A model generated the notes under the pieces. The model worked only from the letters and a program-made list of their open reading frames with translations, did no database searches and was not told the DNA's origin. The position numbers and the translations under genes are program-made. 64,000 nt of DNA from assembly GCA_007753675.1 (NCBI GenBank), contig CP036432.1, positions 4,810,394 through 4,874,393 of the forward strand. The letters are read 5' to 3'. The DNA comes from Stieleria magnilauensis. GTDB taxonomy: Bacteria > Planctomycetota > Planctomycetia > Pirellulales > Pirellulaceae. Positions 1,904 to 15,008 of this stretch are shown in pieces; the first letter of the stretch is position 1; each line of letters starts with the position of its first letter.

Positions 1904-2115
1904 ATGCTGGCACGACTGAAGACGTTTACTTTGTTGGGCATCGAGGCGATGCCGGTCGACGTCGAAGTCGACATCTCCCCAGCCGCGATGCCGAAAACGA
2001 TTCTCGTCGGATTGCCCGACACGGCCGTCAAAGAATCCACCCACCGCGTCGAACGGGCAATCGTCAACAGCGGCTTCACCCGGCCACACGACCGCGTCGT
2101 GATCAATTTGGCCCC
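1904..2115 (+). pseudogene. comM: comM (yifB) 5' part, interrupted by the integrative element
   Basis: The first 71 codons of a Mg-chelatase-like AAA+ protein of the ComM/YifB family, which helps branch migration of incoming single-stranded DNA in natural transformation. Family marks are MLARLKTFTLLGIEAMPVD, VGLPDTAVKES, RVERAIVNSGF and VVINLAPA, the N-terminal Lon-protease-like fold. The family sequence stops at the NLAP motif; beyond it the ORF runs 46 codons into foreign DNA and ends at 2254. The remainder of comM resumes at 13052 with GDLPKQAASFDLP. Rejoined, the two parts give about 516 residues, the normal family length. The gene is therefore split by insertion, not degraded by mutation. 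Confidence 0.9.
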
Positions 2116-3941
2116 GGCGAACCTTCTAGTGCCAAACACAGTTTCTCGCCCGCAACCGGGAAGATTTCGACACAATCTAAGAATGATTTCTTGGCGGTGT
2201 ATCGAAAGTTCACGACGATGCTATCGACAACACCCCGCAACGCTTCCGCCCTAGCTGGCCCTTCGTCGTTTGCAATCGTCAGAGCGTGCCGCAAAGCCTT
2301 TTGACGTGCCGCAACTTCTCCCGCAACCTCGCGGTAGGGAATCGCTAGGTCTTCCGCTTCCGCTTTCAACGCTTCGATTTGCGTTTGCAATCCTTCCATC
2401 TTGGCGTTGGCCCGGTCTTGCAACGCGGGAGACAATCGAGCGAAGCCCGATAGCATCGCGTCTAGCTCTTGTTCCTTCGCGTCAATCTCAGCGTCAAGGT
2501 TTGGCGGTTCGTAGGCTTCGTGAATGTTGAGCCATGCTGTCCACGCGTCACCGCTAACGTGTTGGACCCAATCGTCCGGCACGTAGTCCGTCATCCGTGC
2601 CCATAGTTTCATTTGCTCCGCGTATGCCTTGTTGAATTCTTCGCCCGCGAATTTCCTAACCGTGTTCTCTGGCGGTTCGGCTAGTTCCACTAGCTGCGGG
2701 TCCACTTCCTCAAGATACTTTTCAACCAGTGCCTCTAACACTGAATGCTTGACGCGATGGCAACGACAACCGGTTGGATTCTCTTTGCCGAACGTGTTGT
2801 AGTTTCCGCAGATGTAGGAACCGTAGGTAGTCCGCCCTTGAGGGGCACACGCAACCATCGGTTTACCGCAACCACCACAAACCAAAAAACGCTTTAACCA
2901 AAGATTCGCCACTTGTGACGGTCGCTTTGCTTTCTGACTTGACGCGGATAGCTTCTCTTGGACCTTGTCCCACACGTCACCGGTTACGATCGGTTCGAAT
3001 TCAACGCTATCGGGTTGCACAAATTCGGACGGGTCACGCCGACGCGTTTTCTTGTCGGTCACGTCTTGTATCTGTCCGTTAACGTATTCCTTGAAGCGAG
3101 GGCGTCCGCGTTTGTTCCATGCAGGTAACCCGACATAGACCGGATTCGCCAAGAGCGACCGAACGCCTACCTTGTTCCAATTGTTGTTGTACGCGTTGAC
3201 GATTCCCGCATCGTTCAAACGCGTTGCGATTTTGTGCGGTGAGATATCTTCGGTGGCGTACCAACCGAATATCTGACGGATAACGCCAAGACGTTTTTCA
3301 CAACCCGGACGAAATCGTAGTTCGTCCGTCGGGTCTGACGCTGGCATGTTGCCGCGTCCGTTGAATTGCTCTTTCCGACCGTCGGGATAGATTCGCGTTC
3401 GCTCTGTTTGGCTATGCCATCGAACACGCCACTTTTCGGAACCGTTCGCGAAGCAAACAACGTCCAAGCCGTAGGGAGCGACACCGCCCGGATACAGTCC
3501 CGCTTTCGCGGTCTTGACCAAACCGCCGACGCTTCGCGTTGCCTTTTCCTTTTGTTCCCGGGTACTGGTCAACGCTCCGATAGTGTTGGTCAAAATCGTT
3601 GCGTCATCGTCGGCAGTCAAATTGCCCTGGGATACTGACCACAATTCACAGTTATTTTCTCTCAGCAAAGTTACGAATTGACCAAATTGGTAAACGTCTT
3701 TCGTACCGAACCGATCTTGTGAATCGACAATTATTTGTCGAATTAGTCCAGATTCGACCGCCTTCAATAGCTTCTGAAATTCCGGGCGTTTCGCTGCTTG
3801 GTCGCGTGGGTTCTTCCCTTCCGAGTCTTCGAACCAATGCCCAATGGTGCTATCGGTGCGGACTGCCCAATCCGTGATGGATTGGCGTTGACGTTGAACG
3901 TCCTGCTTGTCGGAGGAAACGCGAATGTAGGCGGCAATCAT
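2103..3941 (-). CDS. int: large serine recombinase (integrase) of the comM element
   Basis: Catalyses integration of the element into comM. Residues 1-145 are the resolvase-type catalytic domain; the YIRVSS motif places the nucleophile at Ser9, with DSQDRFG and an Arg-rich helix following. Residues about 165-310 are the recombinase domain (PYGLDVV, GVIRQIFGWY, IATRLNDAGI). Residues about 350-400 are the zinc ribbon, with CGGCGK and later Cys pairs (YICG, GCRCH). A coiled-coil region rich in Glu/Ala follows, as in phiC31/TP901-1 type integrases. The gene points at the left end and its last codons lie inside attL: the stop (2103-2105) comes from comM DNA. In the excised circle the frame would continue (see 12897-13050). 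No clear Shine-Dalgarno sequence at the ATG. Confidence 0.93.
   Translation of the reverse strand: MIAAYIRVSSDKQDVQRQRQSITDWAVRTDSTIGHWFEDSEGKNPRDQAAKRPEFQKLLKAVESGLIRQIIVDSQDRFGTKDVYQFGQFVTLLRENNCELWSVSQGNLTADDDATILTNTIGALTSTREQKEKATRSVGGLVKTAKAGLYPGGVAPYGLDVVCFANGSEKWRVRWHSQTERTRIYPDGRKEQFNGRGNMPASDPTDELRFRPGCEKRLGVIRQIFGWYATEDISPHKIATRLNDAGIVNAYNNNWNKVGVRSLLANPVYVGLPAWNKRGRPRFKEYVNGQIQDVTDKKTRRRDPSEFVQPDSVEFEPIVTGDVWDKVQEKLSASSQKAKRPSQVANLWLKRFLVCGGCGKPMVACAPQGRTTYGSYICGNYNTFGKENPTGCRCHRVKHSVLEALVEKYLEEVDPQLVELAEPPENTVRKFAGEEFNKAYAEQMKLWARMTDYVPDDWVQHVSGDAWTAWLNIHEAYEPPNLDAEIDAKEQELDAMLSGFARLSPALQDRANAKMEGLQTQIEALKAEAEDLAIPYREVAGEVAARQKALRHALTIANDEGPARAEALRGVVDSIVVNFRYTAKKSFLDCVEIFPVAGEKLCLALEGSPGPN
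2113..2141 (+). other. attL of the comM integrative element
   Basis: Core CCC at 2113-2115, where comM codons give way to element DNA. The element arm TTCTAGTGCCAAACACAG (2124-2141) is an inverted match, 16 of 18, to the arm CAGTGTTTGGCACTGGAA at 13026-13043. Two half-sites facing a short core are what a serine integrase attP looks like. Confidence 0.8.
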
Positions 3942-4316
3942 AATACGCGGTCGTGTTGGGTCTGGAATGGTCCACCTAAACCATAGTTCGCACCCGCAGA
4001 CCGGCGTCAGACGATAGCGACCGATTCGAGCGGTGCGGGACGGCCTGCCAAATTGCCCAGACCTCCCAGGGTGCCCGTATCGCCACCAAGGGGCCTAGCG
4101 TCGCCTGTGTGCTCGTTCGATCGGAAACGTGAACGGGGAGTCACCCTTACGCCGAAGGGCGCTAGAGAGCGTCTCAGGAGATCGCCAACCCGGTCCCGAT
4201 AGACGGCAAGGGTGAGGATGAAGGTGAAGGCACGCTTAAAACACCTGTTTTCCCGTGTTTCGCGGCGTATTTCTCGATTTGTGCCCGAAAATGAGTCACA
4301 ACTCTAACACTCAAAA

Positions 4317-4365
4317 AATACATATACCACTTTGATCTTTATAAGTTGTTAAAGGTATATGTATT
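4317..4365. repeat. 12-bp perfect inverted repeat in an AT-rich patch
   Basis: AATACATATACC at 4317-4328 and GGTATATGTATT at 4354-4365, separated by 25 AT-rich bases. It is the most AT-rich spot of the region. It could be an operator pair, an origin element or a transcription terminator; no U-tract follows, which argues against the last. Confidence 0.6.
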
Positions 4366-4459
4366 GGTTTTGGGGTTTGAGTAACGCGGGCGTTATTTTC
4401 AGGGTCCGTAAATGTGCCTTCATTTAGGTGGTTTTCACCGGAATCGCCAAATTCGGTCT

Positions 4460-4478
4460 TCGAGTGGGTACCCCACTC
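4460..4478. repeat. short hairpin CGAGTGGG-TAC-CCCACTCG
   Basis: Eight-base perfect stem with a three-base loop, 95 bases right of the AT-rich inverted repeat. No gene end is adjacent, so a terminator role is not obvious. Confidence 0.5.
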
Positions 4479-4700
4479 GCAACCGCTCGAAAGTCGAGAG
4501 GGTACCACTCGCAGCCAAAAACCAATCTCATCACTTGGGGTCTATCGGGACCGGGTGTAGCTCCATTGGGTGGTAGGCATTGCTGCCAAAATGGCAGCCC
4601 GCCCGCTACGGCCGCCCGCAAAATCCTCAACTCCCAGACATTCGGCCCAGACAATAGCACCGTTGCAACACGCACTATCGGTACAACCCGAACCCTAGCA

Positions 4701-4860
4701 GATTGTGACGGTCATCCGGCCCGAACCATCAGCACAATCGGCACTTGCCGTCACAATCGACCCAATCAGAACGCCGGACAATCGGAACGATCGGAGCGGG
4801 TGACGATCATTCTGATTGTGACGCCCGCAGATTCATCCCAATCGGAACCCGCCGTCACGA
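4701..4860. repeat. scattered GATTGTGACG / CGTCACAATC motifs
   Basis: GATTGTGACGG at 4701-4711, its reverse complement CCGTCACAATC at 4748-4758, GATTGTGACG at 4814-4823, and a diverged CCGTCACGACC at 4852-4862. Spacings are about 47, 66 and 38 bases. The surrounding DNA repeats CGATCGG and AATCGGAAC words. This looks like an iteron or operator cluster. Confidence 0.5.
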
Positions 4861-4938
4861 CCGGCCCGATCGGTGCGGGCAGAGAATTAAGCGTTGCCTG
4901 CACAACCTGGATTGGCACTCAGAAAGTTTCCGGGAATT

Positions 4939-5090
4939 CTCGGAATTTGCTTGACTCAGCCGCACATAATAATAGTGACCAAGTCTGGTTGGCGTTTGTC
5001 GGTTCGGAAATTCTGGTGCATTCTGCACTCTCCGAACCCTAATTCAGAGAAATTCAAAGATATCTCGGATTTTGCTTGACTCCGCCGCAC
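4939..5090 (+). repeat. 27-bp direct repeat upstream of the small-gene row
   Basis: CTCGGAATTTGCTTGACTCA... (4939-4965) and CTCGGATTTTGCTTGACTCC... (5064-5090) match at 25 of 27 positions, both ending GCCGCAC, and both are followed by an A/T-rich six to nine bases and GTGAC. They sit just ahead of the first small gene at 5164. They may be regulator sites or promoters; TTGACT is present but a -10 box at 16-18 bases is not. Confidence 0.55.
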
Positions 5091-5163
5091 CTATTAAGGG
5101 TGACGAGGGCTTGTTTCAGCCATCGACGAATTCTTGACCATTCAACCCAACAAGAGAAACACC

Positions 5164-5457
5164 ATGTCAAACGAAATCCCACAAGAGACAGAAAAACCGC
5201 AAGCCGACAGCCAACCAACGATTGAGGAACAAAACGCAATCCTTCGTGCTGAGAATCGCTTTCTTCAAGAGCAGTTGTCGGAACGTGGATTGAGCGAACC
5301 GGCGGAACAAGCCGTCCGCTTTGCTGTCCGTGAAGTTGTGGAACAATCCAAACCGCAGCTACCGGACCCCGTCAATTGTTCAGACGCGGAATACTTCCAA
5401 CACCGCGATGAACTGATCAAGAAACACAACTTGCGAAGAAAGAACTACGGCTATTGA
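5164..5457 (+). CDS. small coiled-coil protein, hypothetical (97 aa)
   Basis: Starts MSNEIPQETEKPQ; this ATG is preferred over the upstream in-frame ATG at 5134 because an AAGAGAAAC purine stretch precedes it at a fitting distance. Residues 20-45 form a heptad-patterned helix (EEQNAILRAENRFLQEQLSE), a coiled-coil likely to dimerise, followed by a second helix (AEQAVRFAVREVVEQS) and a basic tail (KKHNLRRKNYGY). No enzyme motif. It heads the row of small plus-strand genes and lies directly after the repeat region, so a replication or regulatory partner role, or the recombination directionality factor of the integrase, are possible. Both are guesses from position. Confidence 0.65.
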   Translation: MSNEIPQETEKPQADSQPTIEEQNAILRAENRFLQEQLSERGLSEPAEQAVRFAVREVVEQSKPQLPDPVNCSDAEYFQHRDELIKKHNLRRKNYGY

Positions 5458-5476
5458 TAACAACCAGAGAGGCAAC

Positions 5477-5794
5477 ATGAAGAATCGACAACGACCGTTC
5501 CCCATAACCGCTGAGACGCCCGACGGCGTGACCAAAACGCTTTTCTTGGCTGACTGGTCGCGTGTGTTGAACGTGCCTTACAACACGCTACACGAACGTA
5601 TGAAGCAAGGCTTATCGGATGACGAAATCTTGAACACGCGAGACCGAAGGAAAGCCAAGGCAATCACGGTAACCGTGGACGGTCGCGAGTTGACTTTGTC
5701 CGAATGGTCGAAGATTGCAGGCGTCCCACGTCAAACGATCGTCACGCGATTGCGACGCGGTAAGACCGGGAGGGCGGCAATCTATGGGGCCTGA
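5477..5794 (+). CDS. small protein with two W-x5-HTH modules (105 aa)
   Basis: Start ATG 5477 with a GAGAGGCAAC Shine-Dalgarno stretch upstream. Two similar modules: residues about 25-52 (LADWSRVLNVPYNTLHERMK followed by QGLSDDEIL) and about 73-102 (LSEWSKIAGVPRQTIVTRLR followed by RGKTGRAAI). Each has a Trp, a helix, a turn, T-[IL]-x2-R at the start of a probable recognition helix, then a Gly and a short helix ending in A/I-L/I. Each module follows a beta segment (KTLFLA, RELTLS). This is a compact DNA-binding HTH pattern known from small phage and homing-endonuclease-associated proteins. The next gene starts before this one ends (10-base overlap), so they are co-translated. Function unknown; DNA binding is inferred. 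Confidence 0.75.
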   Translation: MKNRQRPFPITAETPDGVTKTLFLADWSRVLNVPYNTLHERMKQGLSDDEILNTRDRRKAKAITVTVDGRELTLSEWSKIAGVPRQTIVTRLRRGKTGRAAIYGA

Positions 5795-6074
5795 AATCAC
5801 AATCGGCAATTGGACCAAATCACTTAGTTGGTGGTGCCGTCACTTCAAAATCAGACCGTCACACGTCCGAACACGATTACGGCAGGGACTCCCGCACCCT
5901 CAAGCCGTGTTTGGTGTGTCCCGCACCAATCGTGCCACAAGAGCAACTAGCGTCCGTATCGGTGCAATCGAAATGCCCGCTTCCAAGTGGGCAGCAAAGA
6001 CAGGACAGCGAACGACGGACGTTGCAACACGTCTTGCGTCCGGTATCGACCCGGTCGCAGCGATCTTTCATTGA
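5785..6074 (+). CDS. small protein with two W-x5-HTH modules, second paralogue (96 aa)
   Basis: ATG at 5785 overlaps the end of the previous gene by 10 bases. The modules are residues about 8-40 (SLSWWCRHFKIRPSHVRTRL then RQGLPHPQAV) and about 64-94 (MPASKWAAKTGQRTTDVATR then LASGIDPVAAI). They align with those of the preceding protein and of the 55-residue protein at 6266, giving five module copies in three neighbouring genes. The basic linker FGVSRTNRATRATS separates the two. The paralogues likely arose by local duplication and would bind related DNA sites. Function unknown. Confidence 0.7.
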
Positions 6075-6265
6075 CCGCGTGAACTGAGACTCGCGGTTGG
6101 AATCGCCCGTCGTGTCGGGCGATTCCCGAACATCACCACGCAACAGATTTTCGCACGTCTACGCGTATGGTGTGGTCCCGTGCCCTTGGAAACGAGGGTG
6201 CGGGCAATCTTCCAGAGGTTGGGTGGTGATGCGGCACGGACGCCGCAACGTCCAAGGGAGGCAAC

Positions 6266-6433
6266 ATGCAATTGACATTGAACAACGAAACGAAAAGCGT
6301 AATCGAGTGGGCAAAGCACCTTCACGTTAATCCCAATACGATACGCGGCCGCCTAAAACGGGGTTGGTCGATCGAACGGACATTGACCACACCAACGCTC
6401 TATTCACTTATCAAACAGCACACGACAGCGTAG
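6266..6433 (+). CDS. very small single-module HTH protein (55 aa)
   Basis: MQLTLNNETKSVIEWAKHLH followed by a VNPNTIRGRLKRGWSIERTL module, stop at 6431-6433. An AAGGGAGGCAAC Shine-Dalgarno region precedes the ATG, the best in this part. It carries one copy of the W-x5-HTH module seen twice in each of the two genes before it. The beta start (LTLNNETKS) matches the beta segment that precedes each module in the paralogues, so the whole protein is one complete repeat unit. Easily missed because of its length. Confidence 0.72.
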   Translation: MQLTLNNETKSVIEWAKHLHVNPNTIRGRLKRGWSIERTLTTPTLYSLIKQHTTA

Positions 6434-6535
6434 CTGTCGATCGAAATCCCGATTGATCCCGGGTAGCCGTCTGTCGAGTTGGCAGGTACTCGACAGGCGG
6501 TGTTTTACTTGTCAAACCTTGCGGAGATTCTGAAT

Positions 6536-7177
6536 ATGCGAATCGCAAAGATTCCTCTTTCATCAAGAAAATACCCCGGACTCTACACGTACGTTGACGC
6601 TGATCTTGCCGATACGATCGGTTCGGTCAAGTGGCATCCTCACGTCCAAAAACACACAACGTACGCAACTCGCAAAGTTGAGATAGACGGCAAGCGTACT
6701 ACTCGGTCACTGCACCGAGAAGTGATGCGGATTCGCGGGATTCAATGCCCTGAACAAGTTGACCATGCCGATGGTTGTGGATTGAACAACCTTTCATTCA
6801 ACTTGTCTGCGGTAAGTGCCCAAGAGAATAGCCGTGGAAAGCGTAAGCGAGGTGTATCGGATTTCATCGGCGTTTGCTGGGAAATGGGGCGAGGCAAGTG
6901 GAAAGCCGCTATTCGCGATTCCCGGGGCGTCAGCCGAAATCTCGGTAGGTTTTCTGACGAAGTCCAAGCCGCAAAGGCTTACGATGCGAAGGCACGCGAA
7001 TTGTACGGGCCGAAAGCGAAAGTCAATTTCCCCGATTGGCGTATCCAAATTGTCGACAGCAAAACCGACGAATCGAAAGCAATTGTCAGCTTTCATCCCC
7101 AAAGCAAATCAGCGATAGCCAACCACTCGGCATTCGTCGCAAACACGTTCCCCTTGGAGTGGTGTTGTGTTTGCTGA
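6536..7177 (+). CDS. HNH endonuclease with AP2 DNA-binding domain
   Basis: Start ATG 6536 (MRIAKIPLSSRKYPGLYTYV), after a CGGAG stretch, is preferred over the upstream in-frame ATG at 6479. The HNH core is around residues 58-100: LHREVM, then VDHADGCGLNNLSFNLSAVS and QENSRGK, matching the H...DH-x-N-x-x-x-x-N-L pattern with the metal-binding His77. Residues about 108-166 are an AP2 domain (SDFIGVCWEMGRGKWKAAIR, LGRFSDEVQAAKAYDAKARE). This architecture is typical of free-standing phage and plasmid homing endonucleases that nick or cut DNA. The C-terminal 45 residues are not recognised. The next gene overlaps its end by 11 bases. Confidence 0.88.
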   Translation: MRIAKIPLSSRKYPGLYTYVDADLADTIGSVKWHPHVQKHTTYATRKVEIDGKRTTRSLHREVMRIRGIQCPEQVDHADGCGLNNLSFNLSAVSAQENSRGKRKRGVSDFIGVCWEMGRGKWKAAIRDSRGVSRNLGRFSDEVQAAKAYDAKARELYGPKAKVNFPDWRIQIVDSKTDESKAIVSFHPQSKSAIANHSAFVANTFPLEWCCVC

Positions 7178-7766
7178 TCTTTCGAAACGTCAAAGACACG
7201 TCTTCAAAAAGTCACCGGATGCGGAATTGCTCGCGATTGTCGGCCACCAAGGCGAACTATCAACTTGCCAAGACTGCGGGGACCAATTCATACCGCGTCG
7301 ATCCGATCAAACGCGGTGCGTTCGCAATTGCAGGGGACGCGGTCGATATGGCATCAAGCGTTGCGTTGATTGCGGAGAGTGGTTCTCGCCCAACGATTGG
7401 CGGGTCAAGGCTTGCTTAACTTGCAACGCGTCAGCCAAGCCGATCGTAGGCAAGAATCGGCCCGAACAATGTCAGGCAATCATTGCCGACGATTGGGACG
7501 GGTTTTTGTCACACTATATGGCAATCGAGCCGGTCAAGCCCGTTGACTTGTTCAACGCGTGGTTTGAACCGATGCCGCTATTGGTCTGCCAATCCCGTTG
7601 GCGTTTGTTCATTCGGCAGCGGGCGAATAGCTGGAAACGGTTTGACAAATCGGGATACCATCCGGGCACCGTTCGAATGGTCGCAATGAATCTTGATCGA
7701 TTGTTCCGCTCTGACTTCAAGCCGACGCGGGACGGGGTTTTAACGGTATCGGTCGACGTCGATTGA
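7167..7766 (+). CDS. double zinc-finger protein, hypothetical (199 aa)
   Basis: GTG start at 7167, overlapping the HNH gene by 11 bases, with TTGGAG upstream. Two zinc ribbons occupy residues about 34-95: CQDCGDQF with C-x3-C (CVRNC), and CVDCGEWF with C-x2-C (CLTC). Between and after them are Arg-rich loops. The C-terminal half is helical and Trp-containing (FLSHYMAIEPVKPVDLFNAW, FIRQRANSWKRFDK). Zinc ribbons of this kind occur beside HNH proteins in phages and bind nucleic acid. Overlapping translation ties it to the HNH-AP2 endonuclease. No catalytic motif is seen. Confidence 0.7.
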   Translation: MFADLSKRQRHVFKKSPDAELLAIVGHQGELSTCQDCGDQFIPRRSDQTRCVRNCRGRGRYGIKRCVDCGEWFSPNDWRVKACLTCNASAKPIVGKNRPEQCQAIIADDWDGFLSHYMAIEPVKPVDLFNAWFEPMPLLVCQSRWRLFIRQRANSWKRFDKSGYHPGTVRMVAMNLDRLFRSDFKPTRDGVLTVSVDVD

Positions 7767-7792
7767 TGACCGCGAAACTTTGATGCGGGCCA

Positions 7793-8362
7793 TTAGATGA
7801 CGCCCAGATAACGCCGTACAGTCTGCGTTGAAACGCTCATTGCGTTTGCAATCTCTTTGTACGTCAACCCTTGTTCGCGTAGCCGTCTGGCCCGCGTGGG
7901 CTTCTCTTTCGTCGTTCCAGACTTCCGACCGGAATACTTGCCCTCTTTCTTGGCAACAGCGATACCGGCGGCCTGTCGCTCGCGTCGCGTCTCTTGCTCC
8001 ATTTCGGCAACAGCAAACAGAACCGATGCAATCAACTTTCCAGCGGCACCGCTGAAATCAAGTTGTTGAGTGATTGACACGACACGGACGCCACGTTGCA
8101 ACCAGTCCGTTAGCGTATTGATACCGTCAGCCAACGAACGGCTTAGACGGTCCAGCTTGTAGACGATGACGCACTTGATCTTGCCAGCGAAGATATCGGA
8201 CTGTAACCGCTTGAATCCGTCCCGCTGCAAGTTGTCTCCCGTTGACCGGTCGACGTAAACGGTTGCTTCCATCCCGTGCCCGTCGAGCCACTTTTGAATC
8301 TCGGAAAGTTGACCGGCTTCGTTCTGTCCGGTCGTCGATACTCGAATGTAAATTGCGTTCAT
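7793..8362 (-). CDS. small serine resolvase/invertase (189 aa)
   Basis: Catalytic resolvase domain: YIRVSTTGQN places Ser9 as nucleophile, followed by VIVYKLDRLSRSLADGI, the GVRVVSITQQLDFSGAAGKL segment and the long E-helix with EMEQETRRERQAAG. The C-terminus (EQGLTYKEIANAMSVSTQTVRRYLGVI) is the usual helix-turn-helix. Length is normal for TnpR/Hin/Pin-type enzymes. No transposase accompanies it, so the likely jobs are resolving multimers of a circular form or inverting a segment. Two copies of a 13-bp sequence lie just upstream (8395-8407, 8468-8480) and could be its binding sites. A TATACT -10-like box occurs between the start and those repeats on the minus strand. Confidence 0.88.
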   Translation of the reverse strand: MNAIYIRVSTTGQNEAGQLSEIQKWLDGHGMEATVYVDRSTGDNLQRDGFKRLQSDIFAGKIKCVIVYKLDRLSRSLADGINTLTDWLQRGVRVVSITQQLDFSGAAGKLIASVLFAVAEMEQETRRERQAAGIAVAKKEGKYSGRKSGTTKEKPTRARRLREQGLTYKEIANAMSVSTQTVRRYLGVI

Positions 8363-8394
8363 GTTGTTCCTCTTTAGTTGTACACAAAGAGTAT

Positions 8395-8480
8395 ACCCTA
8401 AACGTACGATAAATGTTGTCGCGTTTTTGCGGGAAATAGCCGTGATTTCCGGGGTGATTTCGCCGCAACCCTAAATGTAC
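8395..8480. repeat. ACCCTAAAYGTAC direct repeats upstream of the resolvase
   Basis: ACCCTAAACGTAC at 8395-8407 and ACCCTAAATGTAC at 8468-8480, 12 of 13 identical, 73 bases apart start to start. They lie in the promoter side of the resolvase gene, where res or operator sites of such enzymes usually sit. Confidence 0.5.
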
Positions 8481-8481
8481 A

Positions 8482-8612
8482 CTTCGGGTTTGGCTGTGCC
8501 GGTTGCAGCGGTTCTGCGGGCTGTGCCGACTGTGCCCGTTCCACTGGTTGCACGGGTGTTACTGGTTGCACCGCTGTTGCGGGTCGTGCTGGTTGTCCAG
8601 TTCTACTGATAG
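8482..8612. repeat. degenerate GGTTGCAC-type low-complexity tract
   Basis: The words GGTTGCAGCGG, CGGGCTGTGCC, CTGGTTGCACGGG, CTGGTTGCACCGC and CGGGTCGTGCTGGTTGTCC follow each other with about 9- or 18-base spacing. All three phases of one strand are open for a while, giving Cys/Gly-rich, hydrophobic or Cys/Trp-rich peptides, and the reverse strand gives a Pro/Gln/Ala-rich peptide that stays open from 8742 to 8422 without an ATG. I cannot decide whether any is translated. Confidence 0.4.
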
Positions 8613-8729
8613 TAGAGAAAGAGACGGCGGGACCGGTCGTAGGGGTGGGTGGGGGTGTGACACTTGCGAGGATGATACGGGTGGTGCGGGATATACTGGC
8701 GGCCCTATGCTGTCTCGCAAACTCGGAAA

Positions 8730-9104
8730 TTAGTGCCCGAGCGATCGCTTGATCATATCCTCAATGGACGATGCTGGTTCGAGATTTGATTCGTCGGCAA
8801 CCACCTCAAAGAGTCGTCGTAGCCACTCATTTGCGTGCATGGGCAAGACATGAAAGCAGCAAGTCGCGGGCCCGAAGGAACCCCTAGCACCGTCAGACAA
8901 GACTTCGGGATGGTCGTTGAGATACGATTGGTGTAGGGCAGACAAGTCCGATTTGACGTTAGTTCGAATGTTCCGCGAATTGACTAAGTCAACTTCGATC
9001 CGAATGCGACCCTTGTCCCGCTTCGCTGTGAACAGAATCGACCCATGATCAAAAGTAAGACGTGTCCCGCTAAGTGCGTCAGCGAGTTTCGGCGGATTTG
9101 CCAT
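8730..9104 (-). CDS. hypothetical protein (124 aa)
   Basis: The start is placed at the ATG 9104 (MANPPKLADALSGTRLTFDH) because an AGGAAC Shine-Dalgarno sequence precedes it; a longer frame to 9239 has no such signal. The protein has an N-terminal beta region (RLTFDHGSILFTAKRDKGRI, RIEVDLVNS) and a helical C-terminal part (ANEWLRRLFEVVADE, SSIEDMIKRSLGH). Two Cys are adjacent (TCCFHVLP). I do not recognise a family. It lies between the low-complexity tract and the divergent thermonuclease gene. Confidence 0.55.
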   Translation of the reverse strand: MANPPKLADALSGTRLTFDHGSILFTAKRDKGRIRIEVDLVNSRNIRTNVKSDLSALHQSYLNDHPEVLSDGARGSFGPATCCFHVLPMHANEWLRRLFEVVADESNLEPASSIEDMIKRSLGH

Positions 9105-9251
9105 TATCGTTCCTGAAATCGAATGAGTTGACTGATTAATCGCTATCTCTGAAAGCGTACCAATATGTGGAGCGGGGAGGGGGTAAGAAACGTTGCCCGC
9201 TCCACAAGTGCCGATGGAACCGAACCGAAACGCAATCAATCAAATTTCGCC

Positions 9252-9908
9252 GTGAGAAATTCAATCCTCTTTATCGCCTTGCTCGTTTGCGGTTGCCCAG
9301 CACCAACCACACCGCTACCGGGCAACGTCGGCACCGTCTCGCGTGTGATGGATGGGGACACGGTCAAGCTAACGCAAGCGGGCGGGACAGAATTAACCAT
9401 CCGTTTAGAGGGCATAGACGCCCCAGAGAAAGCCCAACGGTTCGGGAGCGAGTCAACGCAGTGGCTAGCGGACGCGACGGAAGGCGAAGCCGTCCGCGTT
9501 GTTGCATCGGGAAACGATCGGTACGGGCGAACGCTCGCCCATCTTTACGTTGGTGACCGTTGGCTAAACCGTGAATTGGTCGCGTCGGGTTTGGCTTGGC
9601 ATTACGTCAAGTACAACCAAGACACGCGACTAGCGACCGCCCAGAACGAAGCGAGGGCGAACCGTTTAGGAATCTGGCAAGACGCCCGCCGTGTCGCCCC
9701 GTGGGACTATCGGAACGGTCAACGGATCGAAACGGCGTTACCGGCTAACGTCGCGTCAACGCGGGAATCTGACGCTGTCGTCTACGTGACCGGTAGCGGG
9801 ACGAAGTATCACCGGGAGGGCTGCCGGTATCTTGGCGAAAACGGAAAACCGATTCCGGTTAGCCGTGTGACGTCCGCCTACGAACCGTGCAAGGTTTGCA
9901 AGCCGTAG
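9252..9908 (+). CDS. lipoprotein thermonuclease (staphylococcal nuclease-like) with C-terminal zinc site
   Basis: The GTG start at 9252 gives VRNSILFIALLVCGCPAP, a short signal peptide with a Cys-ending lipobox-like VCGC; an ATG 29 codons upstream is possible but puts a polar extension before it. Residues about 25-145 are the SNase domain: DGDTVKL, IRLEGIDAPE, DRYGRTLAHLYV, LNRELVASGLAWHYV and a closing RANRLGIWQ. The catalytic-type Arg and Asp of IRLEGIDAPE and the Arg of RYGR are present. The tail has KYHREGCRYL followed by PCKVCKP, a His/Cys site that often follows such nucleases. Likely cleaves DNA or RNA outside the cytoplasm or at the membrane. Unusual cargo beside a restriction system. 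Confidence 0.85.
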   Translation: MRNSILFIALLVCGCPAPTTPLPGNVGTVSRVMDGDTVKLTQAGGTELTIRLEGIDAPEKAQRFGSESTQWLADATEGEAVRVVASGNDRYGRTLAHLYVGDRWLNRELVASGLAWHYVKYNQDTRLATAQNEARANRLGIWQDARRVAPWDYRNGQRIETALPANVASTRESDAVVYVTGSGTKYHREGCRYLGENGKPIPVSRVTSAYEPCKVCKP

Positions 9909-9925
9909 GCTTTCTCTATTGCGAC

Positions 9926-9973
9926 GCAAACCCGTTTTGGGTTAATCCCAGAACAGGTTTATGGTTCGCTGTT
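9926..9973. promoter_or_regulatory. possible controller-protein operator ahead of the HTH-R gene pair
   Basis: AAACCC-GTTTT-GGGTTA (about 9928-9944) followed by TCCCAGAACAGGTTT lies in the 81 bases between the thermonuclease stop and the HTH gene start. C proteins of type II systems bind paired short dyads just upstream of their own gene, and this dyad is in the right place. It could equally be a weak terminator of the thermonuclease gene. Confidence 0.3.
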
Positions 9974-9989
9974 TCGGGGATTGCCACGG

Positions 9990-10241
9990 ATGACGAAATC
10001 AACGTTCACCGAACGTTACGACTACTTTCGAAAACTGCTTGTTGACGCTCGCCTATCCGCCAACTTAACGCAAGTTGAATTGGCTGATCGATTGCAGCGT
10101 CCGCAATCATTCGTTTCGAAGTATGAGCGTGCGGAACGTCGGATCGACGTTGTCGAATTCTTGGAGATCGCGGACGCGATCGGCATAGACCCTTTCGAGC
10201 TATTGAAGCAGTTAAAAGGGCACGCACGGAATGGACATTGA
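9990..10241 (+). CDS. Xre-family HTH protein, probable restriction controller (C) protein (83 aa)
   Basis: MTKSTFTERYDYFRKLLVDA leads into a single Xre/HTH_3 domain: LSANLTQVELADRLQRPQSF, VSKYERAERRID, and a closing FLEIADAIGIDPFELL. The ATG at 9990 has CGGGGA nine bases upstream; a TTG at 9981 is in frame but sits directly on that sequence. Size and gene order (HTH gene overlapping the start of a restriction endonuclease gene by 11 bases, methyltransferase separate) are those of C.R operons, where the C protein delays endonuclease synthesis after entry into a new host. The role is inferred from position; the protein is also like general phage/plasmid repressors. Confidence 0.75.
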   Translation: MTKSTFTERYDYFRKLLVDARLSANLTQVELADRLQRPQSFVSKYERAERRIDVVEFLEIADAIGIDPFELLKQLKGHARNGH

Positions 10242-10902
10242 ATGGACGGACTTTAACGGTGCGGGTGAGTTGTTGAGTGAGAAGTACGCCGATGAGTGGT
10301 TAGAACTTCACAGCGTGCTAACCGCGATGCCTCTACATTTGAAAGCGTCCGATCAGAAAGGCAAAGTAGGTACGCACATATTCAACCCCGTTGGAACCAA
10401 CCAGTACATAAAACATCATCTATCGAAGCAAGGTTGGAAAACGAACATCCCGGTTCCAGCCGAACTTCGGTTTCTTGGAATCGACGTCGATTTGACGCGT
10501 GATGGTGTGGTCTTGGAGGTTCAATTTTCCAATTACCCGTTCCTCTTGAACAATGTCATTCGTTCTGAGTTGTTCTTTCGCACCGGTGCCGCGTTCACGT
10601 CCGGCAAGCTAGAAATGCTGATTGTCGTAACAAAAGCCGGAAGATTTCCAGCATCGAATAGCACGCTCTATTATGAACAAGCGATTACGCAACTTGCTGG
10701 GCTTGATAACCATAAAATTTTCGACGTACCCGTCCGCGTGGTCGGGCTGTTTTCCGAAGTCAATAGCGTGGTTCCTTGCGTTTACGGCAAGTATTCAGCG
10801 AAACGCTACTCCCGAACGATTGAGACGGAAGAACAGAAACGGTGCCAAGTCTTGGATGGTCACACCACCAACGGCAAATGGCGTTTGAACGTCCTCGAAT
10901 GA
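10231..10902 (+). CDS. BglII/BstYI-type type II restriction endonuclease
   Basis: 223 residues. The active-site region around residues 83-112 reads LGIDVDLTRDGVVLEVQFSN with PFLLNN after it. In BglII the catalytic set is Asp84, Glu93 and Gln95, a PD-(D/E)xK variant with Gln replacing Lys; here D87, E96 and Q98 have exactly the same spacing. Downstream, ASNSTLYYEQAITQL and FDVPVRVVGLF match the SxYYE and P-x-x-x-x-G pattern of BstYI. Family members cut AGATCT, RGATCY and similar sites, so a GATC-centred target is expected but not shown. The gene overlaps the HTH controller gene and ends one base before the convergent methyltransferase ends, a complete type II unit. Confidence 0.85.
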   Translation: MDIEWTDFNGAGELLSEKYADEWLELHSVLTAMPLHLKASDQKGKVGTHIFNPVGTNQYIKHHLSKQGWKTNIPVPAELRFLGIDVDLTRDGVVLEVQFSNYPFLLNNVIRSELFFRTGAAFTSGKLEMLIVVTKAGRFPASNSTLYYEQAITQLAGLDNHKIFDVPVRVVGLFSEVNSVVPCVYGKYSAKRYSRTIETEEQKRCQVLDGHTTNGKWRLNVLE

Positions 10903-10903
10903 A

Positions 10904-11968
10904 TCAGAAAAGCGTTTTCACTTCGCTTTTCTTTCGCTTTTTGCCGTTCAAACCTTCATCAACGGGGCGTTCTTCGCCACGAAGATCAGCAGCAAACGAA
11001 GCTTCTTCATACGATAGTCGCGTTTCGAGTTCTTCTAGGTGGTGCTGCTCGGAATAGATTTTCGATTTCGTTCTGTCCGTCGCTTTCTTGCCGACTTGGA
11101 CATCGAAACGATACTTATCAGCGGGTTCCCCGGTTTGCTCTACGTAATCACGAAGCGTTTTCAGATTCGGAAAACAACCGTTCTTGTCTGGCTGACCGGA
11201 TAGCCTGCGTTTCGAGACTTCAATGTATCGATCGTCCAATTCCGCCCCGATGAAATTTCGTCCGTAGTCGCGAGCCACAACGGCAACCGTTCCGGTTCCC
11301 ATATATGGGTCAAGCACAACTTCGCCTTTACGCGTTGTTGAAAGAACGATTCGTGCAATTAGGTCTTCGGGGAATTGGCAAGGGTGGATAGTCTGTTCTT
11401 CGTGGTTGTGCTTCACGTTACGGAAGATCCAAATATCAGCCGGATTCTTTCCGTCGGGATTGCATGACAATTCACCCTTTCGATCATCGTCGCGATAGTG
11501 TTTCTTGTTCTGCCACTTCTGAGGGACGCGAATTGCGTCAAGATTGAATAGATAATCGTCTGACTTGGTGAACCAAAGAATGGTTTCGTGCCGGGCTGAG
11601 AATTTACGTTTACCGTGTAACCCATGTTGGCGAACCCAAATGATTCGGTTTCTAGGCTTCATTCCCAAGTCTTCAAGAACGGGAAAGAACCGAATGTCCA
11701 AAGGGATCAAGATCCCCTTGTCCGAGTAAGAGCCGACTTGCCAGAAAATCGACCCTGTATCTTTCAAGACTCGGACACACTCGGTCAATACCTCGCGTTG
11801 CCCGTCCATGTAAATCGAAAGAGCGGTTTTCGATTCGTACTCTTTCCCAATGTTGTACGGCGGGGATGAAACGACTAGATCGACGCTTGAATCTGGTAGC
11901 GTCCGCAGATATTCGAGAGTGTCCCCGTGATGGATTGAATCTAGCTTTAGTTTCTTCCGTTTTGCCAC
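10904..11968 (-). CDS. type II DNA methyltransferase (SPPY, beta class)
   Basis: GTG start at 11968 behind an AAGGAAAAGGG stretch. Motif IV is SSPPYNIGKEY (S35-Y38) in the N-terminal part, and motif I, LDPYMGTGTVAVVARDYGRN, is at about residue 219; this order defines the beta class shared by N4-cytosine and some N6-adenine enzymes. The SPPY form is commonest among N4-cytosine enzymes, as expected for a partner of a BglII-like endonuclease, but base specificity cannot be read directly. About 100 residues after the catalytic core (GQPDKNGCFPNLKTLRDYVE and a Lys/Arg-rich tail) would hold extra target contacts. It is convergent with the endonuclease, so protection and cutting are transcribed separately. 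Confidence 0.92.
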   Translation of the reverse strand: MAKRKKLKLDSIHHGDTLEYLRTLPDSSVDLVVSSPPYNIGKEYESKTALSIYMDGQREVLTECVRVLKDTGSIFWQVGSYSDKGILIPLDIRFFPVLEDLGMKPRNRIIWVRQHGLHGKRKFSARHETILWFTKSDDYLFNLDAIRVPQKWQNKKHYRDDDRKGELSCNPDGKNPADIWIFRNVKHNHEEQTIHPCQFPEDLIARIVLSTTRKGEVVLDPYMGTGTVAVVARDYGRNFIGAELDDRYIEVSKRRLSGQPDKNGCFPNLKTLRDYVEQTGEPADKYRFDVQVGKKATDRTKSKIYSEQHHLEELETRLSYEEASFAADLRGEERPVDEGLNGKKRKKSEVKTLF

Positions 11969-12051
11969 AACAACGCCCTTTTCCTTTGCGTGCGGTTATC
12001 CCAAGATGGGTTATCGTAGCGGTTTGTTCGCAACCGTCAACCGACTTGGTT

Positions 12052-12336
12052 CTATGCAAGTTGTTGACACGTGCGGTCAAACGATTCAAACCATTCCGAA
12101 ACACCGGAAACGACTGATTCGACGCCCGCGATGGTTTGCGGAATCACCGCAACACAAACCGCCCCGTTGTTGTCGATAAGCTTGATTCGGGTATCCGGGA
12201 AAGTTGACGGTTCGGCTTCATCCGGGCGGAGCGTGGGCTGAACGTCTCGCCGAAAATAAGAAAAGCGAGTCCGAGAAAATCGAGAGCGTTCAAGCTGCTG
12301 TGAATCTGATAATCGGGCCAGACAAGTGAGAACCAT
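12052..12336 (-). CDS. hypothetical small protein (up to 94 aa)
   Basis: Open frame between the methyltransferase start and the 12366-12827 gene, all on the minus strand. Only the second half looks protein-like (DTRIKLIDNNGAVCVAVIPQ, TIAGVESVVSGVSEWFESFD); the first 45 residues are Arg/Ser-rich and may not be translated, so the real start may be internal. No family recognised. If real, it forms a small operon with its neighbours ahead of the methyltransferase gene. Confidence 0.4.
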   Translation of the reverse strand: MVLTCLARLSDSQQLERSRFSRTRFSYFRRDVQPTLRPDEAEPSTFPDTRIKLIDNNGAVCVAVIPQTIAGVESVVSGVSEWFESFDRTCQQLA

Positions 12337-12365
12337 TCGCCGTGAAAGCTAGCCACTGCGATTGT

Positions 12366-12827
12366 TCAGTAAGCCCCAAAAAAATCGTCGGGCGGCTCTG
12401 GAACTTCGGAATTGGCGTTTATATCGCTGTCTTCCGGGTCTCTAATTCTCCAAACCAATGATCGAAAGTACCGACCTTCCCTTGCAACAGCGGGAGTCAA
12501 ATCTTTAACACCCTCGCGTCCAGTTCTGCGTACTCGGAAAATTATCGAACATTCGCCTCGCCTCGCAATAATTCGTTCCCGAATATTCTCACGGTCGGTT
12601 CGCCCAGGCATCAATTCGGCAGCAAAGGTGTAGATGCGACTGGACGTCACGTAGCCGTCTCGCTCGACACCATTCAAAGCCTGGCCGGTAGCGGCTACGA
12701 TGTCGTAGAGCGTAGAGTCATTGGTGATTCCAATGTCCTCCGTCCGAACCAAATGACGGCTATCCGTTGACTCGGCCCGGAGGTTCTCGGATAAAGCCCT
12801 AATCTCACTTGCTGCTGAATCACTCAT
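12366..12827 (-). CDS. hypothetical protein (153 aa)
   Basis: Start ATG 12827 (MSDSAASEIRALSENLRAES) is placed after a GCAGGCG stretch; an in-frame ATG lies five codons upstream. The protein is helical at first, then has VRTEDIGITNDSTLYDIVAA, an AAELMPGRTDRENIRERIIA segment and a basic patch (IFRVRRTGREGVKDLTPAVA). It ends with an acidic, Pro-rich tail (NSEVPEPPDDFFGAY), as in some single-stranded DNA binding or partner proteins, but no family is recognised. In the circular form of the element this gene would follow the integrase stop by about 70 bases in the same direction. Confidence 0.6.
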   Translation of the reverse strand: MSDSAASEIRALSENLRAESTDSRHLVRTEDIGITNDSTLYDIVAATGQALNGVERDGYVTSSRIYTFAAELMPGRTDRENIRERIIARRGECSIIFRVRRTGREGVKDLTPAVAREGRYFRSLVWRIRDPEDSDINANSEVPEPPDDFFGAY

Positions 12828-12896
12828 ATCGCCTGCCCGCACAATCCGCGTGTAGTAAGTATTGAGTTGCGAATCTAACGGCTTGTGGGGGGTATG

Positions 12897-13050
12897 TCAA
12901 CCTTCCCGCCGTTTCTTGGCGTTCGCCTTTCGTGTCGCTGCCGCCTTTCGCACCGATTCCGCCCACGGTTGCCCGTAAATCGGTGATATTTCCGCCCATT
13001 CAAACCGCCTATACAACGTCTTTCGCAGTGTTTGGCACTGGAAACTTGCT
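12897..13050 (-). other. int: integrase 3' extension, in frame only across the reconstructed attP
   Basis: In the integrated state this stretch is cut off from the integrase gene. Joining the right end to the left end at the CCC core gives ...GSPG then 50 more residues (starting ASFQCQTLRKTLYRRFEWAE) and a stop at 12897-12899. The added tail is helical and ends very basic (ATRKANAKKRREG). The reading depends on the core register: one extra C at the junction would give a 16-residue tail and an early stop instead. Confidence 0.55.
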
Positions 13051-13053
13051 CCC
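13026..13053 (+). other. attR of the comM integrative element
   Basis: Element arm CAGTGTTTGGCACTGGAA at 13026-13043, seven bases, then the CCC core at 13051-13053, where comM sequence resumes (GGTGATTTGCCC, Gly-Asp-Leu-Pro). Combined with attL it gives a 54-bp attP with the arms 7 and 8 bases from the core, centred on CC. Confidence 0.8.
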
Positions 13054-14389
13054 CGGTGATTTGCCCAAGCAGGCGGCGTCGTTCGACTTGCCGGTCGCCC
13101 TCGGAGTGCTGGCCGGCAGCGGGCAGTTGATCCCAGACCGGTTGGACCATTACGCGATCATCGGCGAGTTGGCTCTCGAAGGGCACACCCGTCCGGTCAA
13201 GGGAGGACTGTCGATCGCGATCGAAGCGGCCAAGAACGAGGGCCTGCGTGGGATCGTGTTGCCGGCCGAAAACGCGGGCGAAGCGGCGGTCGTGGAGGGG
13301 TTGGAAGTGATCCCGGTGGAGAGTCTTTCGCAAGCCGTCGCGTTTTTCGCCGGGGAGATCGACATCGCGCCGGCACCGAGTCGTCTGGAACAGCTGTTCG
13401 AAGAGTACAGTGCCTACGATGTCGACTTCGGCGACGTCCGCGGCCAAGAAGCAGCCAAACGCGCGGTCACACTCGCCGCCGCGGGGCGGCACAACCTGAT
13501 CATGATCGGCCCGCCCGGTTCGGGAAAGACGATGTTGGCCAAACGCGTGCCAACAGTTTTGCCACAACTGAGTGCCCCCGAATCGATCGAGACGACTCGG
13601 ATTTACAGTGCGCTCGGTCAGCTGCCGGCGGGTCAGCCGTTGCTCGCCCGGCGTCCGTTCCGTTCACCCCATCACACAATCAGCGATGCCGGACTGGTCG
13701 GCGGCGGAAGCCCTCCGTCGCCCGGCGAAATCAGCAAAGCCCACAACGGGATCTTGTTCCTGGACGAATTGCCCGAGTTCAACCGCAAGACACTCGAAGT
13801 GATGCGTCAACCGCTCGAAGACGGCATCGTCACGATCTCCCGCGCCCTCCGCAGCACCACGTTCCCGGCGGATTTCATGCTGATCGCGGCGGCCAACCCG
13901 TGTCCCTGCGGCTACCGCAGCGATCCCCGACGCAATTGCAATTGTACGCCGCCACAAGTCGAAAAATACATGAGTCGAATCTCGGGGCCGTTGATGGACC
14001 GAATCGACATACACATCGAAGTCCCTTCGGTACCGTTTGAAGAACTCTCGTCCTCGTCGGTCGCCGGGACATCCAGCCAAGCGATGCGTGCAGATGTTGA
14101 ACGGGCTCGGCGTGTTCAAGCCGAACGCTTTGCCGACGGACCGTCGGGCGTGCGTTACAACGCCCAAATGACCAGCCGCCAAGTCCGGGAGCACTGCAGA
14201 CTGGACAAGTCGTGTCAACAAATTTTGCGACACAGCGTCGAAGAGATGGGGCTTTCCGCCCGCGCCCACGACAAAATCTTACGCGTCTGCCGAACCATCG
14301 CCGACGTCGCCGGTGACGCCGATTTGAACGAGAACCATCTCGCCGAAGCGATCAATTATCGGAATCTCGATCGCGATTTGTGGGTTTAG
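13052..14389 (+). pseudogene. comM: comM (yifB) 3' part, interrupted by the integrative element
   Basis: Resumes at GDLPKQAASFDLPVALGVLA and runs to the natural stop. It carries the AAA+ core: Walker A IGPPGSGKTMLAKR, Walker B NGILFLDELPEF, the LVGGG and PFRSPHHTISDAG motifs, a zinc-binding-like NPCPCGYRSDPRRNCNC insert, and the C-terminal ISGPLMDRIDIHIEVP, LSARAHDKILRVCRTIAD and EAINYR motifs. Everything except the first 71 codons is intact and no internal stop is present, so precise excision would restore a functional gene. A GTG at 12932 inside the element opens a fused frame, but a product lacking the N-terminal domain is unlikely to replace ComM. Confidence 0.92.
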
Positions 14390-14407: not shown

Positions 14408-14576
14408 TGGCAGAATGATTCGGGGCAGAATGATGTTGTGTGGACCGACGGGAAATCACCCGCGAGGGTACTCCCATCATTCTGCCACCATCATTCTGCC
14501 ACCATCATTCTGCCACCATCATTCTGCCACCATCATTCTGCCACCCCATCATTCTGCCACCCCATCATTCTGCCAA
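14408..14576. repeat. CATCATTCTGCC tandem array with an inverted leader copy
   Basis: Seven near-identical units of CATCATTCTGCCAC (the last ones with extra Cs) run from 14475 to 14576. An inverted pair (GGCAGAATGATTCGGGGCAG, continuing AATGATG, 14408-14436) precedes them and could pair with the array. It lies just downstream of comM. No spacers of the CRISPR kind are present. The rest of 14390-15163 holds this array and no clear gene. Confidence 0.75.
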
Positions 14577-15008
14577 ATCGATTCTGCTTCTTATTCAGAG
14601 TCGCCCCATCCTCGCAGCGTGAACTTGGAGACGAGCAGCGCGTGTTGGGTGTTGCCTCCGGATGACTTTCGCGGTACCAGATGGGGAGGTCTTGGGTTTA
14701 AAAATTTTGGTGGTCAAAACAGAAGAGCCTTGCTCGGGGACGAATTCACGCCCAGCTCATTTTTTGACCAACCCATTTTTTGACCAACTCTGTTCGCAGC
14801 ATGATCCCTCTCTGGCGTTTGCTTGCTGCGCAAACGCCGTCTCTCCCAGAGGGAGAGAATCTAAATGGGTTGCCAAACGCTGCCGTTATACAATCGCTGC
14901 TCCTTGCGGCGATTTTAATAATGTCTCGAGACCAAAGTTGTTCACCTGCGTAGGCGTCTAGGTAAGATGATGGCACCGACAGATTCGTGCTACCAGGAGA
15001 AATGCGCA

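Follow-up and report, generated by a model that had tools for sequence, protein, structure and literature searches.

The AbaR islands of Acinetobacter are inserted into the comM gene by transposition, with enzymes other than the large serine recombinases (LSRs) that are the subject of this work. Genes for magnesium chelatases/ATP-dependent proteases are a repeated chromosomal attachment site (attB) for diverse site-specific LSRs (Durrant et al. 2022, PMC10083194; here and below, papers with PMC numbers are cited from the sections consulted), and most Wolbachia sr1WO recombinases integrate into a magnesium chelatase gene (PMC9203015); judged by their names, the targets in both papers presumably belong to the ComM/YifB family. 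Self-disrupting recombinases are described in PMC8371274 as confined to archaeal tyrosine recombinases. We analysed a stretch of 64,000 nt from Stieleria magnilauensis (contig CP036432.1, positions 4,810,394 to 4,874,393), called the window below. It contains comM cut by an island with 10,938 bp between its two crossovers, and the serine integrase of this island probably has a C-terminal module that exists only in the circular state of the element.

The features that bear on the insertion are the following (positions in the window).

1904..2115, + strand: comM 5′ part, codons 1-70 and the first two bases (CC) of codon Pro71, with the ATG at 1904
13052..14389, + strand: comM 3′ part, starting at Pro71 (GDLPKQ...), with a TIGR00368 match
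2113..2115, no strand: shared core CCC of attL; comparison of nine elements narrows the crossover to CC at 2114-2115
13051..13053, no strand: shared core CCC of attR
2116..2141, no strand: element side of attL (one half of the element's site, attP), with inverted arm TTCTAGTGCCAAACACAG
13026..13050, no strand: element side of attR (the other attP half), with inverted arm CAGTGTTTGGCACTGGAA
2103..3941, − strand: large serine integrase, integrated form, 612 amino acids (aa); Pfam Resolvase, Recombinase and Zn_ribbon_recom
12897..13050, − strand: putative severed C-terminal tail of the integrase, 50 codons in the integrase frame, stop at 12897-12899

Joining the two comM flanks in frame gives a ComM of 515 aa with the conserved NLAPGDLPK, split as NLAP/GDLPK; the split protein belongs to NCBIfam TIGR00368 (‘YifB family Mg chelatase-like AAA ATPase’). 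Both junctions contain CCCCGG, with four Cs each; because the comM frame is preserved only with the shared CCC (2113-2115 and 13051-13053), attB is deduced to have five Cs and attP three. The predicted empty site, ATCAATTTGGCCCCCGGTGATTTGCC, differs by a single silent change from ATCAATCTGGCCCCCGGTGATTTGCC of the uninterrupted sister genome G006 (locus L003), and comM of G001 (L005) is nearly as close; the site that is cut here is thus conserved and uncut in relatives. The attP of 54 bp with inverted arms, and the CC common to nine elements (see below), agree with the ∼50-bp attP and the non-palindromic 2-bp crossover of LSRs. The arms match at 16 of 18 positions, a score that one in 1000 shuffles of the two flanks (40 bases each) attains, and on this test we set aside an origin of the att repeats by chance. 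The integrase itself has the LSR domains PF00239, PF07508 and PF13408 above cut-off.

The original prediction, made from the letters of the window, was borne out in most of these points: a serine-integrase element of ∼10.9 kb in comM (seen in the in-frame join, the Pfam domains and the att sites), CCC cores at both junctions of a gene that can be merged in frame, 16/18 arms in a 54-bp attP, and an empty attB to be read in an uninterrupted relative. Its reconstruction of core, attB and attP was right; it overlooked that attP lies inside the integrase frame. Its claim that a serine integrase choosing comM was undescribed does not hold, as genes of the magnesium-chelatase/comM type have been published as a hot spot for LSRs (Durrant 2022; Wolbachia phage WO). 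Tn7-like transposition was rejected as the route of insertion: no such gene was found among the island open reading frames (ORFs) scanned with Pfam, PADLOC and NCBIfam, and the integrase and att sites fit an LSR.

The location of attP within the 3′ end of the integrase frame is well supported by the sequence. In the reconstructed circle, whose sequence does not depend on where the crossover is placed inside the shared core, the integrase has 660 aa versus 612 aa in the integrated form, which is stopped within four codons: its two final residues (PN) and its TGA are both comM antisense sequence. A structural model of the 612-aa form (mean pLDDT 78, pTM 0.41, ten sequences) has, in keeping with the coiled coil of LSRs, helices at 482-502 and 505-558; its last strand is at 601-604. 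The best PDB matches of the model are LSR complexes, with low TM-scores (0.2-0.3) and high root-mean-square deviations, as may occur for a flexible multi-domain protein; a sequence search of solved structures returned nothing usable. Judging from the Pfam domains and the model, the LSR core seems to lack nothing when the tail is gone, so that the truncated enzyme is expected to fold.

Related integrases were searched for in 241 genomes of the family, 396 of the order, 397 of the class and 392 of the phylum (the draws overlap, few candidates were scored per genome, and each genome is a single assembly, many being metagenome bins). Matches came from 10 family genomes (E 1e-30) and from 12 order, 19 class and 2 phylum genomes (E 1e-40), the window's genome counted; a scan of genome contigs with the single integrase gave nothing usable. 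Junctions near comM residue 71 are present in the window and in ten genomes (G092, G060, G116, G045, G370, G513, G539, G680, G666 and G537). In nine elements, including that of the window, the orientation is the same and both ends could be located; the ends of G513 lie on different contigs and were paired by comM register only. G666, with a decayed comM, and G537, with an inverted element, were left out of this set, and G631 and G584 were not counted as their other ends could not be placed; the LSRs of the latter two are close (79% DNA identity) and have different stops directly after the same codon. The window's integrase is 57 to 27% identical to those of the other eight and to the integrase of G028 (described below), and integrases using comM split into several supported groups in a tree.

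When the nine elements are registered manually on the comM frame, the stretches shared by the two ends are CCC, GCTCCG, CCGGC, GCCCCGGC, CC, CCGGC, CTGGCCCCGGC, CC and CCCGCG; exactly the CC of the Pro codon is common to them. All nine integrated integrases end 1-3 residues past the point where the two forms diverge, at a TGA from comM antisense (junctions read by eye). In the reconstructed circles the integrase frame runs on across attP in nine cases out of nine, for 50, 64, 30, 55, 46, 52, 68, 72 and 80 codons.

The right ends are open for 29-79 codons in the integrase frame and for 1-68 codons in other frames, and four of the nine elements have a further frame that is open over 40 codons; since other frames are open too, openness alone is weak evidence. 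These counts, and the fact that the hot spot was already known, would suit an ordinary serine-integrase island whose frame across attP is open by chance in GC-rich DNA. Chance, however, would account neither for tails that are homologous and in one frame between distant elements nor for the pattern of codon-position differences given below, and we consider this explanation highly improbable.

Among the 36 pairs of tails, nine have a similarity reached by under 2% of 2000 shuffles, and four pairs (window-G370, window-G092, G092-G060 and G116-G539) have one reached by none. Most tails form two homologous groups, with either a GQPW motif or a helix-turn-helix (HTH). The G116 tail matches Pfam HTH_38 and HTH_7 above gathering score, the G539 and G680 tails match HTH models only below it, and the other six of the nine tails tested have no Pfam match. 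Net charges range from 0 to +18 and are mostly basic; the HTH or mostly basic character of the tails suggests contact with DNA.

A search for the tail in 240 genomes of the family found eight places in seven genomes. The open frames around them do not exceed 177 aa, hence no tail is joined to an LSR core, and upstream of all eight there is no integrase match. Three of the places (window, G092 and G060) adjoin comM. Homologues of the window's tail are present in G155 (L166, contig C1; 76% identical over 38 codons) and in G190 (L165, contig C10). Over the 38 codons aligned with G155, differences at the three codon positions number 8/2/18, with proportions of synonymous and nonsynonymous differences, pS and pN, of 0.60 and 0.13; tail pairs with G190 have pS of 0.66 and 0.78 and pN of 0.28. 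A stretch lacking the integrase start is thus constrained as protein in the integrase frame, as expected if the circle, which joins it to the integrase, recurs.

Another case does not involve comM. One LSR is found at three unrelated loci (in G028, G226 and G232, the last copy with two internal stops); the three sequences diverge within the integrase codons for NYGT, and the stop is host-specific. At the opposite ends there is a basic tail of 69 codons, in frame, where pN/pS is 0.34-0.39 in the integrase frame and exceeds 1 in both others.

Several observations weigh against a module that exists only in the circle. No circle has been observed; it is reconstructed from the integrated ends. Searches of plasmids and phages at E 1e-20 gave no match, thus no circle or unintegrated copy was seen, and the genomes searched contain no uninterrupted integrase-plus-tail; a scan of viral contigs found 12 loci, 20-30% identical. 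In the window, G370 and G045, one frame other than that of the integrase is open for slightly longer. The G045 tail is without a clear homologue, and the G513 tail (30 codons) has a weak one only. As to constraint, the window-G155 stretch was selected because it could be aligned, in the trio the changes behind pN/pS number 5 to 8.5 per kind, and constraint on the trio tail is weaker than on the core, where pN/pS is about 0.1 over the last 900 bases. The G537 LSR, at the same comM codon in opposite orientation, stops before the att site, so that a cut integrase is not a universal feature, and the LSR of G007, at another comM site, ends ∼0.3 kb from the junction. Finally, no related LSR turned up for the G155 and G190 tails, either in the integrase search of the family or in the ∼34 kb scanned on the expected side; the only LSR trace near the G155 tail is a weak N-terminal match (30%). 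These two may be remnants, or the tail may be able to exist by itself.

The absence of an LSR near the G155 and G190 tails lowers the odds of a circle-only module and of the directionality switch proposed below, and raises those of a tail that is a separate small gene at the right end, such as one for a directionality factor, translated from an alternative start when the element is integrated. Such a gene would also account for constraint on a tail detached from the integrase start, and at the conserved YRRF the G155 sequence has an ATG. The matching codon, however, is CTC in G370 and G060 (read by eye), so there is no conserved start, and a separate gene leaves the agreement with the integrase frame across attP in all nine elements unexplained; we regard it as unlikely.

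Somewhat less unlikely, though still doubtful, is that attP overlaps the integrase 3′ end for compactness only, the tail being dispensable and its loss without effect. The last 21 residues of the phiC31 integrase are reported to be non-essential (PMC5737554), a further point against a functional module, and the early stop in G537, the short tail of G513 and the lower constraint of tails relative to the core point the same way. A useless appendix should decay, however, and the tails are conserved as protein, one with a clear HTH domain.

With a circle-only module, events would run as follows; we infer that circles form, that the long form is translated and that the tail affects activity. An island with a type II restriction-modification system would integrate as a circle into comM by its own LSR, at the Pro CC of NLAP. 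The circle would encode the longer, 660-aa integrase, with a complete LSR core and, in most elements, a basic or HTH tail. Integration would cut the tail off and leave it, with no integrase start, at the island's opposite end, while the core would gain a two-residue ending and a stop from comM antisense. The tail could be an extra DNA-contact module favouring integration from the circle, and without it the integrated element would have an integrase that is weaker or acts in another direction; insertion would thus reset the element's own recombinase. Integration could then be its own directionality switch, with a long form, present only in the circle, that integrates and a truncated form that cannot reintegrate or is biased to excision. 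This further step is a tentative proposal, which we hold to be possible rather than probable. If it is true, tail loss would partly replace a separate directionality factor, and these serine recombinases would be a bacterial family whose members edit their own protein through integration.

The island also carries the following genes, among which those for a type II endonuclease and a methyltransferase are adjacent (Pfam, PADLOC). Besides these there are unassigned ORFs; no directionality factor was identified.

6479..7177, + strand: homing-endonuclease-like protein (weak; PADLOC HEase 1.4e-5; no Pfam or NCBIfam match)
7793..8362, − strand: small serine recombinase of resolvase/invertase type (Pfam Resolvase and HTH_7)
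9165..9908, + strand: thermonuclease-like protein (Pfam SNase)
9981..10241, + strand: HTH protein, candidate restriction-modification control protein (Pfam HTH_3; PADLOC Control_protein 1.5e-6)
10231..10902, + strand: type II restriction endonuclease, BglII-like (Pfam PF09195, 27.5 bits with cut-off 26; PADLOC REase_II 5e-66)
10904..11968, − strand: type II DNA methyltransferase (Pfam N6_N4_Mtase; PADLOC MTase_II 3.7e-120)

The inverted element of G537 (L101, L123) is ∼38 kb long, and its integrase reads toward the comM 3′ part. Other breaks of comM occur in the same genus: in L034 (G007, contig C53) the gene is split near the Walker A motif, at about residue 220, by roughly 11.5 kb, and in L036 (G011, contig C2) at SRISG/PLMDRI, about residue 383, by an insert of roughly 16 kb that encodes a distant serine integrase; by eye, this LSR gene enters comM and runs on for 22 codons. 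Two relatives (L035 in G009, contig C242, and L043 in G026, contig C24) have an extra comM 3′ part beside comM, which looks as if left by elements or repeated insertions. The window's genome encodes a second ComM, ∼46% identical to the split one, which may buffer the loss of comM. In this genome, an intact ComM paralogue and a truncated copy that matches the last 318 residues of this paralogue at 98% identity were located (L045 and L046; C1:638440 and C1:5405743), and near them are two ORFs of equal length with identical starts, transposase-like by eye. Directly downstream of comM, at 14415-14700 of the window, words like CATCATTCTGCC are repeated; similar words are found near comM in relatives L003, L005 and L006.

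Integration-dependent immunity of mycobacteriophages also places att within a gene, and integration alters the C-terminus of the protein; there the repressor gene is cut, whereas the island of the window cuts the integrase. AbaR islands share with the window the location in comM and differ in transposition and enzymes. The LSR islands of Durrant et al. use the same kind of target gene, and the consulted sections of PMC10083194 do not mention attP inside the LSR gene. Wolbachia sr1WO is like the window in having a serine recombinase, the same kind of gene and gene parts on both sides; it differs in being a prophage, and recombinase truncation is unmentioned in the consulted sections of PMC9203015. 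Phrase matching in the open-access literature, over titles and the starts of abstracts, found no attP inside a serine integrase gene.

Directionality is a central question for serine integrases. In engineered fusions of an integrase with a recombination directionality factor, a partner added to the LSR C-terminus changes the direction of reaction (PMC5737554); those fusions are artificial, whereas here a C-terminal addition is natural and is removed by integration. The elements would offer natural enzyme pairs that differ by a tail removed in the reaction itself, and losing the tail on insertion could give them an inbuilt means of switching between free and inserted states. For such families, mining of LSRs from integrated genomes would clone the truncated enzyme, not the pre-integration one.

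A further likeness is to the archaeal SSV-type ‘suicidal’ tyrosine integrases, where attP lies within the integrase gene and the gene is split on integration (PMC8371274), as attP lies inside the integrase in the reconstructed circles of all nine comM elements and of the LSR found at three loci. The SSV-type enzyme is a tyrosine recombinase (PF16795), a class to which the window's integrase does not belong, and its catalytic domain is parted from the N-terminal part. In contrast, the enzyme of the window is a bacterial serine recombinase that loses only its C-terminal tail and keeps the three Pfam LSR domains together; the finding casts doubt on the restriction of self-disrupting recombinases to archaea.

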